This document shows, in pieces, positions 195 through 10,900 of a stretch of DNA of 11,057 bases. This DNA is from Treponema sp. (lineage in GTDB: Bacteria > Spirochaetota > Spirochaetia > Treponematales > Treponemataceae). The position numbers and the translations under genes are program-made. Within the stretch, counting starts at the first letter, position 1, and each line of letters begins with the position of its first letter. The stretch spans positions 14,005 to 25,061 of the forward strand of contig JAAVAM010000022.1 of NCBI GenBank assembly GCA_014804085.1, written 5' to 3'. The notes under the pieces were generated by a model. It was given only the letters and a program-made list of their open reading frames with translations, made no database searches and was not told the DNA's origin.

Positions 195-1853
195 TCAATA
201 CCCCATTTCCCCCAGCGCATGCTCCGCCTCGCGGATCTCATCATACGGCATTACATGGTCTTTGTAGATAATGCTGTTCTCATGCGCCTTGCCGAGCAGG
301 AGCACGATGTCGCCCGTGCCCGCCAGCGACAGCGCATGGCGGATTGCGGCGGGGCGGTCGGGAATGATGAGCAGGTCTTTTCCCTGCACTTTGCCCGCCT
401 TTTCCGCCCCGGCGGCAATCTGCGCGAGTAGTTCGGCGGGATCTTCCCCGCGCGGGTCTTCGTCGGCAAGGATTATTACGTCGCAGAAGCGCGCGGCAAT
501 CTCGCCCTGCAACGGGCGTTTTTCCGTGTCGCGCTCGCCGCCGCTCCCGAACACGCACAGCATCTTGCCCGCGCACCGCTTGCGGATGGGCGGAAAAATC
601 GTCTCGAACGACGACGGCGTGTGCGCGTAGTCCACGATGACCTCGAACGGCTGCCGGTGGTCGATGACGGTCATCCTGCCTAGGATGGGTACCAGTCGGC
701 CCGTGTGCGGCGCAATCTCGTCAAGCGGCGTACCCGTCAGCCGGAAGACGGCAAGCAGTGCCGCCATGATATTGTACGCGTTGAACGCGCCGGGAGTCGG
801 CGCGGTTATGGTCAGCTCGCCGCCGTCCAAGCCCTGCTGCCCGCGCACCGTAAAGCGCAGGTCGTTGTGCGTCGCCGTAATGTCGTGCGCCGCGAGGTAC
901 GGCATGTCGCCGGGAATCGGGGGGAGCGGCTTGCCGGTCTGCTTGCCCGCCGTGCCGCCGGTCGTAAAGCCGAATACCGGGTGCGTGGTGGCGGCGGCAA
1001 AATACGGCGCGCTTTCGTCCTCAAGGTTGACGATACCGAACGCGCTCACGGTCGTTTCCCTGCCGCCGATGACCTTGCGGTGGTCGCACTCGTCCAGCTT
1101 GCGGAACAGGTTCGCCTTGTCGTCGCGGTACTGCGCGAACGTCTTGTGGAATTCAAGGTGTTCCAGCGTGACGTTCATGAACACGGCGCAGTCGTAGTCG
1201 ATGCAGCCCGTGCGGTTCGTCCGTGGCGAAAGCCCGTGCGACGACGATTCCACCACGGCATATTCGCAGCCCGCCGCGAGCATCTGTGCGAGCTGCCGCT
1301 GGATAATCGGGGCTTCGGGCGTGGTCTGGTGCTGCGGGTTCGCGATTGCCTCCCTGCCGAGCGAGTATTCCACGGTGGAGATGAAGCCGGCCTTTTTGCC
1401 GCTCAGACGCAGCAGCTGCCAGATGAATGAGACGGTAGACGACTTGCCTTCCGTGCCCGTCACGCCGATGACGACGAGTTTCTTTGACGGCCAGTCGTAG
1501 AACGTGGCGGAAATCGGTGCCATGACAAAGCGGGCATCCGCCACCCTGATGAGCGGCACGTCCTCGCCCCGCACGTCGAGCGCGGCGATAATGGCAAATT
1601 TGATCGTCTCGCTCCATTCATCCTGAAAGACGACTGCCGCCGCCCCTGCCATGATGGCGGTGGGAATGAATTTGTTCCCCGTGGTGTGCGTCCCGGGCAG
1701 TGCGAAGAACAGCGTCCCTGCCGTCACGTCGCGGCTGTCAAAGGCGAGCGACGAAATGACGGGATCGCCAGTTGTTCCGTCTGCGGGCGCGTCGTCCATG
1801 CGGACGCGCGTATGTTCGATAGCGGCAAGCAGTGCCGAAAGCGGTTTTTCCAT
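195..1853 (-). CDS. murE: UDP-N-acetylmuramyl-tripeptide synthetase (MurE)
   Basis: This cytoplasmic Mur ligase adds the third stem-peptide amino acid to UDP-MurNAc-L-Ala-D-Glu using ATP. The 552-aa product shows the N-terminal UDP-binding domain (SSLAFDSRDV near residue 34), the ATP loop VTGTEGKSS (131-139), the YRDDKANLF stretch that carries the lysine carbamylated in Mur ligases, and a C-terminal GKAHENSIIYKDH block. The specificity loop reads EDPR (465-468) where meso-diaminopimelate enzymes usually have DNPR. Treponemes are reported to use L-ornithine here, so the added residue is uncertain. The chosen ATG at 1853 starts the recognisable family N-terminus and lies six bases below a promoter; the frame stays open upstream to 1982 but only through the promoter and repeat B. 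There is no Shine-Dalgarno. The protein is somewhat longer than typical (about 490-500 aa), partly from an insertion around the TTGGTAGKQTGKPLPPIPG segment. Confidence 0.93.
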   Translation of the reverse strand: MEKPLSALLAAIEHTRVRMDDAPADGTTGDPVISSLAFDSRDVTAGTLFFALPGTHTTGNKFIPTAIMAGAAAVVFQDEWSETIKFAIIAALDVRGEDVPLIRVADARFVMAPISATFYDWPSKKLVVIGVTGTEGKSSTVSFIWQLLRLSGKKAGFISTVEYSLGREAIANPQHQTTPEAPIIQRQLAQMLAAGCEYAVVESSSHGLSPRTNRTGCIDYDCAVFMNVTLEHLEFHKTFAQYRDDKANLFRKLDECDHRKVIGGRETTVSAFGIVNLEDESAPYFAAATTHPVFGFTTGGTAGKQTGKPLPPIPGDMPYLAAHDITATHNDLRFTVRGQQGLDGGELTITAPTPGAFNAYNIMAALLAVFRLTGTPLDEIAPHTGRLVPILGRMTVIDHRQPFEVIVDYAHTPSSFETIFPPIRKRCAGKMLCVFGSGGERDTEKRPLQGEIAARFCDVIILADEDPRGEDPAELLAQIAAGAEKAGKVQGKDLLIIPDRPAAIRHALSLAGTGDIVLLLGKAHENSIIYKDHVMPYDEIREAEHALGEMGY

Positions 1854-2036: not shown

Positions 2037-2395
2037 AGGAGTGTTGCGGACGGGGTTCTTTTTTGTTCCTGTCGCGGACTGTGTGGCGTTTAGTCCCTGT
2101 CACGGACGGGTTGCTTTTTTGTCCCTGTCGGGGACTGTTTTGCGCGCTGTCCCTGCCACGGACGGGGTGCACGTTCGTCCCTGTCGGGGACTGTTTTGCG
2201 TGTTGTCCCTGCTGCGGACGGGTTGCATGTTCGTCCCTGTCAGGGATTTTTTTGTGTCTTGTCCCCGTTAGGGACGGTTTTGCGGGCAGTCCCCGTCGGG
2301 GACGTGTACACGTCCCTGTCAGGGACTAAGGCATGTCCGTGCCGGGGACGTTCCCGCGCACTTGGTGCGGACACGGGCGTGTCCCTGCTGGGGAC
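2037..2395. repeat. Array of 14 short dyads, 28-bp then 23-bp period
   Basis: The unit is a 15-base dyad, best form GTCCCTGTCAGGGAC (7-bp arms, one central base). Units start at 2037 (degenerate), 2065, 2093, 2121, 2149, 2177, 2205, 2233, 2261 and 2289, all exactly 28 apart. They continue at 2312, 2335, 2358 (degenerate) and 2381, exactly 23 apart. Spacers are 13 bases and then 8. The 13-base spacers alternate between a GGGTTGCATGTTC-like and a TGTTTTGCGTGTT-like sequence from 2108 to 2232, giving a 56-bp higher-order repeat. All three forward frames are largely open here because the unit lacks stop codons and 28 is not a multiple of 3, so I do not call coding. Possible roles are a multi-site protein-binding array or a chain of RNA hairpins upstream of the lipoprotein promoter. 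Confidence 0.9.
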
Positions 2396-2496: not shown

Positions 2497-2526
2497 TTGA
2501 CAAAACCAATCGGGGGGGGGTAATAT
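2497..2526 (+). promoter_or_regulatory. Lipoprotein promoter with poly-G in its spacer
   Basis: A consensus -35 TTGACA (2497-2502) and a -10 TAATAT (2521-2526) are separated by 18 bp, the last nine of which are G. Losing one G would give the optimal 17-bp spacer; gaining or losing more should weaken transcription. A start near 2533 would give a leader of about 23 bases containing the AAGGAG ribosome binding site (2544-2549), six bases before the ATG. Confidence 0.8.
2512..2520 (+). repeat. Homopolymeric G9 tract
   Basis: Nine consecutive G directly abut the -10 hexamer. Runs of this length are prone to slipped-strand mispairing, and this one lies where a length change alters promoter spacing. 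Confidence 0.95.
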
Positions 2527-2555: not shown

Positions 2556-4493
2556 ATGAGAATGACGGCAAAGATGTTCGGCGTGCTGTGCGCGGCGAGC
2601 TTGGTGTTCTGTGCGGCGTGTGACGGCATAGGGAACAAGCCTGAGGACGAGGATGGTAAGGACAAAGATAAGACCGAATTGGACAACGATAAGGACAAAG
2701 ACGACGACGACAAGGATGACGGCAGCGAAAAGGATGATACCGTTGTCACGGTGTCGTATGATGTCGGGTCAATTGTGAAGTTTGAGGGCAAGGATTATCT
2801 TGTCATCAAGAATACCGAGGCGGGAAATACGGTTGCGGAGCAGTCGCCCGTATATCACTATTATCCGAACGCGCGGGCGGATGCCTACCGCGACCACCTG
2901 ATTGAAATGTATGAGGTGAAAGCGCCGTATGTGCTCGTGTTCAATACGGAGACCACGAAATCGACGACTACCAACGGGACATCTTGGGATGATGAGTATA
3001 GGATTTTGCGCAACGGCGTGACGCTTTATCGGATCAAGTATCGGTGGGAGAATTTGATAAGTAATATTGCGACAATTACGGCGGACGAGTTGCGCAAGGA
3101 CTATGACCCGTCTGCTTTTTGCATCGATAATTATTCGGCTGTATACGGAAGTGATTTGTCCGAAAAATTTAATCGTTCGTATCGGTTCGACTATAACGAA
3201 GACGGACATACGATTATCTATCGTGACGACAATTGGCGATTGACGGACGACAATAAGGATTATGTGTATATAAACGGGAATGAGCGTAATCAGTATGCGA
3301 TTAAGAACAGGATAAGTAGCAACGCGCGTAGTTATATTCTCCGTAATCCGAACAATACTAGTACTAACAACGGCAATGAGTTCTTTGAATTCCGGGTTGA
3401 CTTTGAAGAAGATGCTGTTACGCCGAGAGCATACCGGCTCATCGCAAACGGCATGGGACTGATTGATGGTAATACGAATAACAAACTCTATCAGAGTACC
3501 CTTTATATCGGCAGTTTAGGGTTTTGGCCTGATGGTGGTCGTGGTATATGGTTCAGCGTTGATACGAAAAGGAATAATGTCTCTGACCCCAAGCTTGTAT
3601 TCGACGATTTGTGTGAACGAACGGAATCGGGCGGCGATAATGGCGGTCAGTCTGAGGGTGACCCCGCAAGCGGCACAGAAACATACGGCGATTCCTTGAC
3701 GAATGAAGGTGTCGATAAGTATGTGACTGTTTCCGAAAAGACAACAATTGTCAACGACGTCAATGTTCCTGAGACGATAACGTTCTCCGTTCCGTTTGAA
3801 GATGCGAATGCGCCGATGAGCAAGTTTACCACAGTCACCTTTGTGCCAGTGCCATACAATGATGATGTGAAAGACGAGCATTATGTCATCTTTGTGCCGA
3901 AAACAGGCAGCAAGACCGCCTACGAGTTCATCGACAACTTCAAGGCGGGTTACGGTATTTTTGGCGACTATACGTGGGAGCGTCCTGTTTCCACTTCAAC
4001 CCCGTCAACGGATTCGTCGGTGACCTTACAGGACGATGCCGCCGCCAAGGCAGACACGTCAACGGCGCGCTTTAATTTCACGGGCAATCGGTTCCGCATT
4101 GAAATGGAAGCCATGACATCAAACTCCGGGGTGAGCATTGAGACGGACGCTACCGCTTCCGGCGGCAAGGCGGGCATTCTTACGAGCGAGGATTCGCGGG
4201 CGGAGGCAATCATCACATTCCCGGCGGGCAATTACACCGGCTACGCGGTCATCTACGCGCCGAGCGGCGACCACGATGCGTTCTATGTGAAATTCGGCGA
4301 CGGTCATATCCGCATGTATGCGGACGACCCGCCGCCTGCGGGGTACAAGCCCACGAGCCGCACGCCCATAAAGCTTTCGTGCGACAAGGAAGTGACCGTG
4401 CGCATGGTCATTTCGCCGCGCAGTGAGAAGTTCACGGGCAAAGCCGTTGAGACGGGCATGTACATCGACTATGTGGAATTCACGAAAGACTAA
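2556..4493 (+). CDS. Large secreted lipoprotein with CBM6/35-like C-terminus
   Basis: The 645-aa precursor starts at an ATG with AAGGAG six bases upstream. Residues 1-21 form a signal peptide ending in FCAAC, a relaxed spirochaete-type lipobox with the lipidated cysteine at 22. A strongly acidic, Lys/Asp-rich tether follows (about 27-62). The first folded region (about 66-350) opens with YDVGSIVKFEGKDYLVIKN and is not a family I recognise. A Gly/Ser/Asn-rich linker (about 353-382) leads to a second unidentified domain (about 390-490), then a Ser/Thr-rich linker. The last ~130 residues (514-645) resemble a beta-sandwich carbohydrate-binding module: an IEMEAM start, GG near 540, a GNYTGYAVIYAP core and a YIDYVEF end. 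This suggests a glycan-binding envelope protein, but that is inference. The first two-thirds is A+T-richer than the C-terminal module. It is probably monocistronic and phase-variable. Confidence 0.85.
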   Translation: MRMTAKMFGVLCAASLVFCAACDGIGNKPEDEDGKDKDKTELDNDKDKDDDDKDDGSEKDDTVVTVSYDVGSIVKFEGKDYLVIKNTEAGNTVAEQSPVYHYYPNARADAYRDHLIEMYEVKAPYVLVFNTETTKSTTTNGTSWDDEYRILRNGVTLYRIKYRWENLISNIATITADELRKDYDPSAFCIDNYSAVYGSDLSEKFNRSYRFDYNEDGHTIIYRDDNWRLTDDNKDYVYINGNERNQYAIKNRISSNARSYILRNPNNTSTNNGNEFFEFRVDFEEDAVTPRAYRLIANGMGLIDGNTNNKLYQSTLYIGSLGFWPDGGRGIWFSVDTKRNNVSDPKLVFDDLCERTESGGDNGGQSEGDPASGTETYGDSLTNEGVDKYVTVSEKTTIVNDVNVPETITFSVPFEDANAPMSKFTTVTFVPVPYNDDVKDEHYVIFVPKTGSKTAYEFIDNFKAGYGIFGDYTWERPVSTSTPSTDSSVTLQDDAAAKADTSTARFNFTGNRFRIEMEAMTSNSGVSIETDATASGGKAGILTSEDSRAEAIITFPAGNYTGYAVIYAPSGDHDAFYVKFGDGHIRMYADDPPPAGYKPTSRTPIKLSCDKEVTVRMVISPRSEKFTGKAVETGMYIDYVEFTKD

Positions 4494-10056: not shown

Positions 10057-10383
10057 TTAGGCATTTTGGTAGGAATCGATGAGCGCGGTGACGTGCTTGC
10101 GGTCGTCGGGAGACATTCGGAACAGTTTGTCGGCGAGTGTGCGGATTTCTGCGGGATACGGCTCGTCGTTATTTGAGAGGTCTTTTTTGCCGGTTACCAA
10201 ATATTCCACGGTAACGCCGAGCGCACCCGCGATTTTTACGGCAATGTCCGCAGACGGAACGGACGAATTTTCCCGCAGGTAATTGCTGAGCGTGTACGGG
10301 TTCAGCCCCGCTTTTGCCGCAACCTCCTTGACGAGCAGTCCTTGATACGAAAGTTCGTCCCGAAAATTCTCTTTGAAGCCCAT
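10057..10383 (-). CDS. XRE/Cro-C1-family transcriptional regulator
   Basis: The 108-aa protein has an N-terminal lambda-repressor-like helix-turn-helix (about 8-64): LVKEVAAKAGLNPYTLSNYL forms helices 2 and 3, followed by ADIAVKIAGALGVTVEYLVTG. A short C-terminal region (about 70-108) with a helical SPDDRKHVTALIDSY segment may be for dimerisation; there is no peptidase or sensor domain. It is divergent from the 121-aa lipoprotein gene, and four GTANATNTAC dyads fill the intergenic region, so repression of itself and of the lipoprotein is likely. The ATG at 10383 is nine bases below a -10-like TATGAT. Confidence 0.9.
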   Translation of the reverse strand: MGFKENFRDELSYQGLLVKEVAAKAGLNPYTLSNYLRENSSVPSADIAVKIAGALGVTVEYLVTGKKDLSNNDEPYPAEIRTLADKLFRMSPDDRKHVTALIDSYQNA

Positions 10384-10392
10384 ACATTCCCT

Positions 10393-10398
10393 ATCATA
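10393..10398 (-). promoter_or_regulatory. Candidate -10 of the XRE regulator gene
   Basis: The minus strand reads TATGAT (5/6 to consensus) nine bases before the ATG; no good -35 is seen at 16-18 bp. The first operator dyad (10400-10409) directly abuts it, which fits autorepression. The predicted leader would be only about 3 bases. Confidence 0.4.
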
Positions 10399-10399
10399 A

Positions 10400-10498
10400 G
10401 TAAATTTACGATTTTAGGGTTGACAGTTAGTATATTTACGATTATAATCAGATTTGTAAGTAGATTTACTGACAAAACAAATGGCATCGTATATCTAC
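10400..10498. promoter_or_regulatory. Four regularly spaced operator dyads GTANATNTAC
   Basis: O1 GTAAATTTAC (10400-10409), O2 GTATATTTAC (10430-10439), O3 GTAGATTTAC (10460-10469) and O4 GTATATCTAC (10489-10498) all fit the symmetric consensus GTANATNTAC. Starts are 30, 30 and 29 bp apart, about three helical turns. O1 lies in the regulator's promoter, O2 in the spacer of the divergent promoter, O3 just after the expected start site and O4 in the leader. The divergent XRE protein is the obvious candidate ligand. Confidence 0.8.
10420..10448 (+). promoter_or_regulatory. Perfect consensus promoter of the Ig-like lipoprotein
   Basis: TTGACA (10420-10425) and TATAAT (10443-10448) are both perfect consensus hexamers with an optimal 17-bp spacer. 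Transcription should start near 10455, giving a leader of about 80 bases. Such a strong promoter overlapped by operators suggests that repression is the main control. Confidence 0.9.
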
Positions 10499-10534
10499 TA
10501 TGAGACAACCGTGGAAAATCACAGGAGGCAAACT

Positions 10535-10900
10535 ATGGTGAAGTTGGGAAAAAGAATCGGGCTGCTCGCGCTTGCGGTATGTATGGCGGTAGGCATTGTG
10601 GCGTGCTATGACGGCGGGGAAATTCCCGCGCCGTCAATCGAAGTGAGTGAGACAGTACTTGAATTGCAAAAGGATGGCGATAATGCTTATGTTATCGTGA
10701 AAGTCAGTGACTGTGATTCCCTTGATGCTTCTGTAAAGGTTGTCAAGAATTACAATGGTGAAGTCAGTTTGGGTACGGTCGGGGAACGCTCAATTGTTAC
10801 CGTAACACCGGGAACAAAGGCGGGTACGGGAGCGGTCATTATTACCGCCGGAAACAAAGGTTCTTGGAATTCTGTGTCAATTCCGATTACCGTAAAATAG
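10535..10900 (+). CDS. Small lipoprotein with bacterial Ig-like fold
   Basis: The 121-aa precursor begins at ATG 10535, chosen because AGGAGG (10523-10528) lies six bases upstream and the signal peptide starts there; an in-frame ATG at 10481 lies beside O4 and lacks a ribosome binding site. The signal peptide (KLGKR, then a Leu/Ala/Val core) ends in GIVAC, with the lipidated cysteine at 24. The mature ~97 residues are short beta-strand-like segments (PSIEVSETVLELQKD, NAYVIVKVSDC, SIVTVTPGTKAGTGAVIITAG, SVSIPITV) typical of one bacterial Ig-like domain. It is an envelope-anchored single-domain protein of unknown ligand. It is controlled by the consensus promoter and operator set and closed by a strong terminator. 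Confidence 0.87.
   Translation: MVKLGKRIGLLALAVCMAVGIVACYDGGEIPAPSIEVSETVLELQKDGDNAYVIVKVSDCDSLDASVKVVKNYNGEVSLGTVGERSIVTVTPGTKAGTGAVIITAGNKGSWNSVSIPITVK

Follow-up and report, generated by a model that had tools for sequence, protein, structure and literature searches.

An array of fourteen short dyads in an 11,057-nucleotide stretch of Treponema DNA (the window) belongs to a broad class of tandem dyad arrays in this genus, whose members share a few helical spacings rather than a sequence and lie near genes for HU-DUF4469 proteins more often than expected. It is, in our judgement, an even call that the window array is a stand-alone member of a class of DNA-level protein-binding arrays, which would be read by an HU-DUF4469 protein and would act on the promoter of the neighbouring lipoprotein-like gene.

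Geometry and conservation of the window array

Direct reading of the dyad starts gave fourteen 15-base positions between 2037 and 2395 (Table 1). Nine starts lie at 28-bp steps (2037, 2065, 2093, 2121, 2149, 2177, 2205, 2233 and 2261), with 13-bp spacers, and the tenth, 2289, ends these steps and begins the 23-bp ones (2289, 2312, 2335, 2358 and 2381), as proposed in an earlier reading made from the sequence alone (the sequence-only reading). The 56-bp super-repeat claimed there is supported by Tandem Repeats Finder (TRF), which reported periods of 28, 56 and 112 bp; a loose GGTTTTGC theme is seen in several spacers of the 28-bp part. At the switch between periods, an inverted-repeat search found a near-perfect 38-bp palindrome. 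The copy at 2037 keeps its right half alone. The odd unit at 2358 looks degenerate, but it has closely similar counterparts (GCACTGGGCGCGGAC and close variants) in genomes G082 and G084, and we therefore regard it as conserved, not decayed. The unit matching this position differs at loci L010, L012, L071 and L073.

Table 1. Features of the window around the dyad array (positions are those of the window).
Feature	Positions	Strand	Evidence or remark
Mur-ligase gene (murE-like), divergent, upstream of array	195..1853	-	Pfam Mur_ligase, Mur_ligase_M, Mur_ligase_C
28-bp-period part of array	2037..2288	+	direct reading; TRF 28/56 bp
23-bp-period part of array	2289..2395	+	common to all aligned arrays; R1 model matches
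Conserved junction, dyad - GTGTACAC - dyad, at the 28-bp to 23-bp switch	2289..2326	.	inverted repeat; aligned arrays
Asymmetric unit GCACTTGGTGCGGAC	2358..2372	+	similar unit in L011, G082 and G084 arrays
Promoter-like TTGACA (2497), 18 bp with G9 tract (2512-2520), TAATAT (2521)	2497..2526	+	lipoprotein gene
Lipoprotein-like gene, 645 aa, downstream of array	2556..4493	+	no Pfam match; paralogues

With at most one mismatch, GTCCCTGTCNGGGAC matched the host, a MAG of the genus Treponema, 14 times on the forward and 8 times on the reverse strand, whereas the reversed control pattern had a single match on each strand. On our 4-unit array score the window array reached 107, and when the same 794 kb of the host was resampled once with a dinucleotide Markov model, nothing scored at least 82; thus, the array is beyond chance. 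A dyad search of 58 other genomes gave 0-3 matches per strand, like the control pattern (0-5), compared with 15 in the host.

In the host, window included, dyads of the GTCCCTGTCNGGGAC type (one mismatch) occur on contigs C20, C29 (two places) and C47. The host holds four arrays of this dyad, namely, the window array, those at about C20:55478 and about C47:130898, and that at C29:54423, and in each of them the spacing changes from 28 bp to 23 bp at one common junction. The number of 28-bp steps is nine in the window (counting the half copy), three in C20 and four each in C29:54423 (locus L011), where one such step measures 29 bp, and C47. A two-dyad pattern found 11 loci in the GTDB collection, four of them in three Treponema MAGs; the other seven were taken as unrelated, four after direct reading (periods of 12/18, 24, 27 or 28 bp) and three from the control scan alone. 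The same pattern had no match in viral contigs, and a phage origin was rejected.

Thirteen arrays from four genomes, which are not independent sequences, were aligned. The junction and the 23-bp part are common to the host and the three other Treponema MAGs, whose arrays carry zero, one or two 28-bp steps; over the alignment, eight arrays have at least one such step and five have none, and the junction spacer is similar in 11 arrays and deleted in two. The 23-bp part is therefore the conserved core, and the 28-bp part gains or loses whole units. Spacing that varied at random in relatives had been named as evidence against the array; what we find is that spacing is kept and sequence changes. 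Another repeat, TATTTGCGGAAATACGT, adjoins the GTCCC arrays of G082 and G084 (flanks of L070, L074, L075 and L125) and also forms a 22-bp array in the host, at C3:72636.

The adjacent gene had been read as a phase-variable lipoprotein gene. Its promoter does contain a G9 tract, and the same layout recurs at two paralogues, with a spacer of 18 bp at L011 and 19 bp at L270; switching itself is putative. Three host genes match the lipoprotein N-terminus (window, L011 and L270), and each has the G-tract promoter and an upstream array. The array at C29:54423 is the one that precedes the L011 paralogue; it lies, as in the window, about 100 bp from the promoter, and at L270 the distance is about 370 bp. 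The L270 repeat is a different one (CAGCC-N-GT-N-GCAC, period 23, weak dyad symmetry). Neither array nor G-tract promoter was found at L271 and L273, which share only the C-terminal part of the lipoprotein; a third such relative, L272, is cut by a contig end. An array is thus kept at this promoter type when its sequence is replaced, which speaks for function, in three cases.

Two further features of the window may be recorded here. On either side of the murE-like gene (61-190 and 1895-2035) lies a further intergenic repeat that contains strong inverted repeats, with a 19-bp perfect stem (arms 1923-1941 and 1957-1975; GGGTTCTTAGGGC..GCCCTAAG), and L258 has a comparable element after its array. 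At 10057-10900, a small lipoprotein-like gene and a gene for an HTH_3 regulator are divergently oriented.

A class of arrays with few periods and many sequences

We scored seven host contigs (793,682 bp, 29% of the genome), preselected for a known array or HU gene, at a threshold of at least 82, and obtained 47 arrays with periods of 21 (4), 22 (10), 23 (12), 24 (2), 28 (3), 40 (2), 41 (6) and 42 bp (8), and none at other lags between 15 and 45. Extending the lag to 60 moved three of these to 46 or 56, a doubled unit. Their density is not an unbiased estimate, because the contigs were preselected and eight of the 47 arrays were known before (C15:28514, C20:55478, C29:16098, C29:73902, C30:2576, C3:151195, C47:130898 and C51:81551); this preselection favours no particular period. 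The array at C29:54423, fourth member of the window family, falls outside the 47 owing to its 29-bp step. A second class is made up of the arrays that repeat every 40-42 bp, or about four turns of the helix (host contigs C3, C20, C29, C30, C47 and C51), and one 42-bp unit, CAAATCGCATTTG, is common to host C29:97226 and G119 C13:114019.

Four other genomes of the genus (400 kb, including the contig G021:C6, already known to hold one of the arrays) gave ten arrays, with periods of 22 (4), 23 (2), 42 (2), 44 (1) and 30 bp (1). In 100 kb of E. coli, the control, there was one coding-repeat site, inside yacH (scores of 86, 84 and 81 at lags 18, 15 and 21, respectively), and nothing of at least 82 at 21-24, 28 or 40-42. 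The score rewards palindromes, so that dyad symmetry is partly built in; consensus symmetry was 5.08 of 8 pairs, against 3.88 in column shuffles. Clustering 92 arrays, of which at least four were entered twice (from the census and from an HU locus), gave 65 families, 50 of them singletons. One 22-bp family consists of an HU-linked home array and three orphans, like the window family.

These properties bear on the reading that the arrays are non-functional or selfish intergenic tandem repeats of the REP, BIME or MITE kind, with periods set by a copying mechanism. In its favour, 36 of the 47 arrays found in the host lie between genes (p=3e-25, with coding sequence at 0.888 by our own gene calls), some families are multi-copy, the number of units varies by whole units and the neighbours are very diverse. 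REP, BIME and REPIN elements are likewise intergenic, palindromic and multi-copy; however, the arrays described here are tandem at a fixed helical period, with many unrelated sequences in one genome. That so many unrelated sequences share the same few periods, that the arrays are linked to HU genes, and that an array is kept upstream of the lipoprotein paralogues though its sequence is replaced, makes this reading an unlikely one. We know of no bacterial genome with dozens of unrelated tandem palindrome arrays sharing only helical spacing.

Thirty of the 36 intergenic host arrays sit 5' of a gene, and arrays often follow a stop codon. The remaining eleven are inside ORFs by our gene calls (six at 42 bp, two at 21, two at 23 and one at 41), and some of these look like coding repeats. 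Several orphans lie beside what look, judging by their N-termini, like housekeeping genes.

HU-DUF4469 and XRE genes beside the arrays

The array-linked protein matches the HU-HIG and DUF4469 clade of the HU/IHF superfamily (PF14734, PF14848 and PF18291). Its profile matches the structure 4fmr, a putative DNA-binding protein of Bacteroides vulgatus, at 9.4e-10, although phmmer against the PDB with a single HU sequence gave no match; Foldseek also paired it with 4fmr at 7.8e-14, but with a TM score of 0.37. In the AF2 model the HU half is poor (mean pLDDT 66) and only the Ig-like half is reliable. A word-limited protein search returned 14 relatives at E 1e-5 or better, and at E 1e-10 or better relatives were present in 74 of 200 genomes of the genus.

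Eighty HU-DUF4469 loci were examined, 20 from the search and 60 further ones taken in order, with some skipped, among the matches listed; several of their contigs end before the XRE position. A 4-unit dyad array scoring at least 78 was found in 41 loci, compared with none of 80 shuffles, with best periods of 23 (25), 22 (8), 28 (2), 27 (1) and others (5). Thus tandem arrays with a period of 22-23 or 27-28 bp are present at 36 of the 80 loci, their dyads being for the most part unrelated, and at 39 none reached the threshold of 78. Among control loci, 10 of 43 also scored at least 78; their periods are scattered, most of them come from GC-rich genomes that belong to other groups, and 8 of 43 shuffles scored as high. 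Only one of 52 control windows was positive at 22-24 or 27-28 bp, a comparison that favours the HU side, as windows overlapping known arrays had been excluded. The fairer test takes its expectation from random genes of the same seven host contigs: an intergenic array lies within 1.5 kb of 6 of 8 HU genes (1.60 expected, p=0.0016), within 500 bp of 3 of 8 (0.82 expected, p=0.042) and within 100 bp of 3 of 8 (0.35 expected, p=0.003). This linkage is an enrichment and not a rule, since for 41 of the host's 47 arrays no HU-DUF4469 match lies within 1.5 kb.

The host has 20 DUF4469 matches, and none of 14 control genomes has any. Fourteen of the 20 have an array scoring at least 77 (12 at least 78), with periods of 22-24, 28 or 44 bp, and four or five show no array; L250 and L251 may be one element assembled twice, and L253 and L257 are near-identical. 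Twelve of these fourteen arrays are just downstream of the HU gene, between it and the next, often exported, gene, and two are upstream. The window array has the tandem-dyad spacing (21-24 or 27-28 bp) of this HU-DUF4469-linked family as defined here. It is not itself adjacent to an HU-DUF4469 gene, the nearest match being 25.7 kb away, but the same dyad family adjoins one at C20, where the array lies between a trypsin-like gene and an XRE regulator gene that it abuts and that is followed by the HU-like/DUF4469 gene.

XRE proteins commonly bind dyads, and lambda-type, ImmR and CapH repressors use tandem operators, which suggests another reader. Here the arrays would be operators of a CapH/ImmR-like XRE regulator under the control of an M78 peptidase, the HU gene being a passenger. 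Of the 36 array-positive HU loci, 21 do have an XRE gene that separates the array from the HU gene, and one XRE of the group matches PADLOC RmrA (3e-12) and CapH (8e-11), with a peptidase partner that matches CapP (2e-19). Our model detected no XRE gene at another 14 loci, though some of these contigs stop within a few hundred bases on the upstream side; here the array precedes the HU gene by 27-460 bp. In the one remaining locus the array lies downstream. The HU gene, beside the array in these 14 loci, is for this reason the steadier partner. Moreover, among the 12 host loci with a downstream array, only L262 has an XRE gene within the 1.5-kb flanks.

Additional evidence comes from the XRE side. 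A sequence-only model of the 23-bp part (R1) matched 13 of 200 genomes of the genus; on inspection seven hold real arrays and six weak or other repeats, and five of the seven have an array that precedes the gene of an XRE relative from the same group. The arrays of G185, G021 and G095 have dyads of mostly RTCCGY...RCGGAY at 23-bp spacing only, and beside them XRE, M78 peptidase and HU-like/DUF4469 genes stand in a row; an orphan array lies between metG and another HTH gene in G185 and G021 (L118 and L120). XRE relatives at E 1e-20 or better occur in eight of 200 genomes. Ten of their upstream regions were scored, an eleventh (L137) being truncated where its contig ends. Seven gave a best lag of 23, although L138, one of these, did not exceed its own shuffles; one region gave 28 followed by 23, and two (L136 and L139) gave neither. 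At three XRE loci the dyads are unrelated to GTCC (GTATAGGC in L134; TTAGTGCAGTAA in L135 and L138). The XRE promoters that were read contain, on the stretch from array to gene, a further palindrome (GTGCAA-N5-TTGCAC, or TTCAATTTTATTGAA and variants), and this palindrome tracks XRE type, which the array dyad does not. The first of these, present as such or as a close variant at L010, L071, L108 and L111, may be the operator of the XRE protein itself.

Compared with the lambda-type, ImmR and CapH operators, the arrays are alike in dyad length (about 15-17 bp), in repeat distance (about 23-24 bp) and in their place next to an XRE gene that is accompanied by an ImmA/IrrE-type peptidase. They differ in that they reach 14 sites and two periods in one array, with many families per genome and many loci where no XRE gene was found. 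The arrangement of dyads before an XRE gene with M78 peptidase holds for the home-array relatives G185, G021, G095 and G222; the HU protein of G222 is 79% identical to that of the host home locus, and its XRE is intact. The home locus itself, on C20, has an altered XRE, and no M78 gene was detected there; nor does the arrangement hold for the window array or for the 14 HU loci mentioned above. On balance, XRE operators seem to us a rather improbable account of the arrays. As a separate observation, L162-L169 are XRE, M78 peptidase and HU-DUF4469 modules; those of L165-L168 have restriction-modification genes close by, and that of L165 also Fic genes, which gives them defence-like surroundings.

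The HU-DUF4469 protein is, at about even odds, the best single candidate reader of the window dyad family. Three observations speak against it: the arrays that have no HU gene close by; G119 and G224, which carry the window dyad family and whose best HU relatives are only about 30-34% identical; and the fast change of dyads between similar HU proteins. Dyads differ between HU proteins that are 81% identical (L233 and L234), and HU identity and dyad similarity are weakly correlated, with a rho of 0.14 over 780 pairs of 40 loci, four of them added by hand. Either specificity would thus have to change fast, or geometry is read and not sequence. At L233, L234 and L244 the array lies between the HU-DUF4469 gene and a divergent ATPase-like gene (MLLEFSCSNVRSIRD..), whose product we take to be abortive-infection-like.

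DNA sites, transcribed hairpins and what the arrays may do

The sequence-only reading had offered co-transcribed hairpins as one possibility, and we considered a structured RNA or hairpin chain within a transcript. The 13-array alignment has no excess of such change inside dyads, which goes against that proposal, nor any excess covariation for dyads 1x2 and 3x4. Dyads 2 and 3 (alignment A1, columns 24-41 with 44-61), in contrast, do covary (0.154 against 0.096 shuffled; 0 of 500 shuffles reach this value, and the best slid version gives 0.097), a signal that a pure DNA-site model does not need and a simple one does not explain. RNAalifold predicted 27 pairs, five with compensatory change, but the covariation term contributes merely -0.61 of -26.78 kcal/mol. 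Rfam gave no match in the window at gathering score, and a known Rfam RNA was rejected; its 32 sub-threshold matches are mostly to microRNA families, most at 1900-2020, outside the array. Given also that arrays occur in both orientations relative to genes, an RNA role appears highly improbable.

CRISPR arrays share with these arrays short palindromic repeats at regular spacing. They differ in that the window array has related spacers, shared between arrays, and a period that changes within the array; spacer elements (GGTTTTGC, GTGTACAC and TAAG) recur within and between arrays, and a Pfam scan of nine proteins of the window revealed no Cas family. We therefore agree with the earlier judgement that the array is not CRISPR-like. 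It was also said to fit no known family, and our searches indeed found no paper on it, yet the array does have a place, in the broad class of this genus. In the literature on tandem palindromic arrays, judged by titles and the start of abstracts, there was none on such arrays. Searches for DUF4469 found no paper, those on the HU superfamily and Treponema intergenic palindromes nothing on point, and those on CapH/CapP and Treponema poly-G background only. A 2017 survey is said to have reported a lineage-specific expansion of the HU superfamily in Bacteroidetes; we know of no report of private tandem dyad arrays for the HU-HIG/DUF4469 clade.

The array, its copies, their spacing and conservation, and the gene linkage are matters of observation. 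Because of the period, the symmetry, the intergenic position and the gene linkage, DNA sites of dimeric proteins in helical register fit best. The protein-binding array once put forward is thus supported by comparative evidence; binding itself, the identity of the binder and the effect on transcription are what we infer from it. Each dyad would be a site for a dimeric protein, and sites about two helical turns apart (21-24 bp, and in the window family also 28) would let neighbouring dimers touch or wrap DNA together. The home array of the window family in the host would be C20:55478, before the XRE and then the HU-like/DUF4469 gene, and the reader would be the HU-DUF4469 protein of that locus or, with lower probability, the XRE. 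The window array, which precedes the G-tract lipoprotein promoter by about 100 bp, could set promoter activity or local DNA shape.

It is tempting to speculate further that the expanded HU-DUF4469 paralogues, 20 matches in the host, each pair with their own dyad family, a home array and orphans being kept in helical register (two or four turns) as the dyad sequence turns over and geometry is selected; the window array would then be an orphan placed on a switchable lipoprotein gene. We offer this pairing model tentatively, as a possibility that falls clearly short of an even chance. It predicts specifically which protein binds which array, and the arrays give a simple test of whether geometry or sequence is under selection. 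If HU-DUF4469 paralogues do read private arrays, one fold would have given rise, in a new way, to many independent regulatory or chromosome-shaping circuits, and the DUF4469 family, of unknown role, would gain a function.
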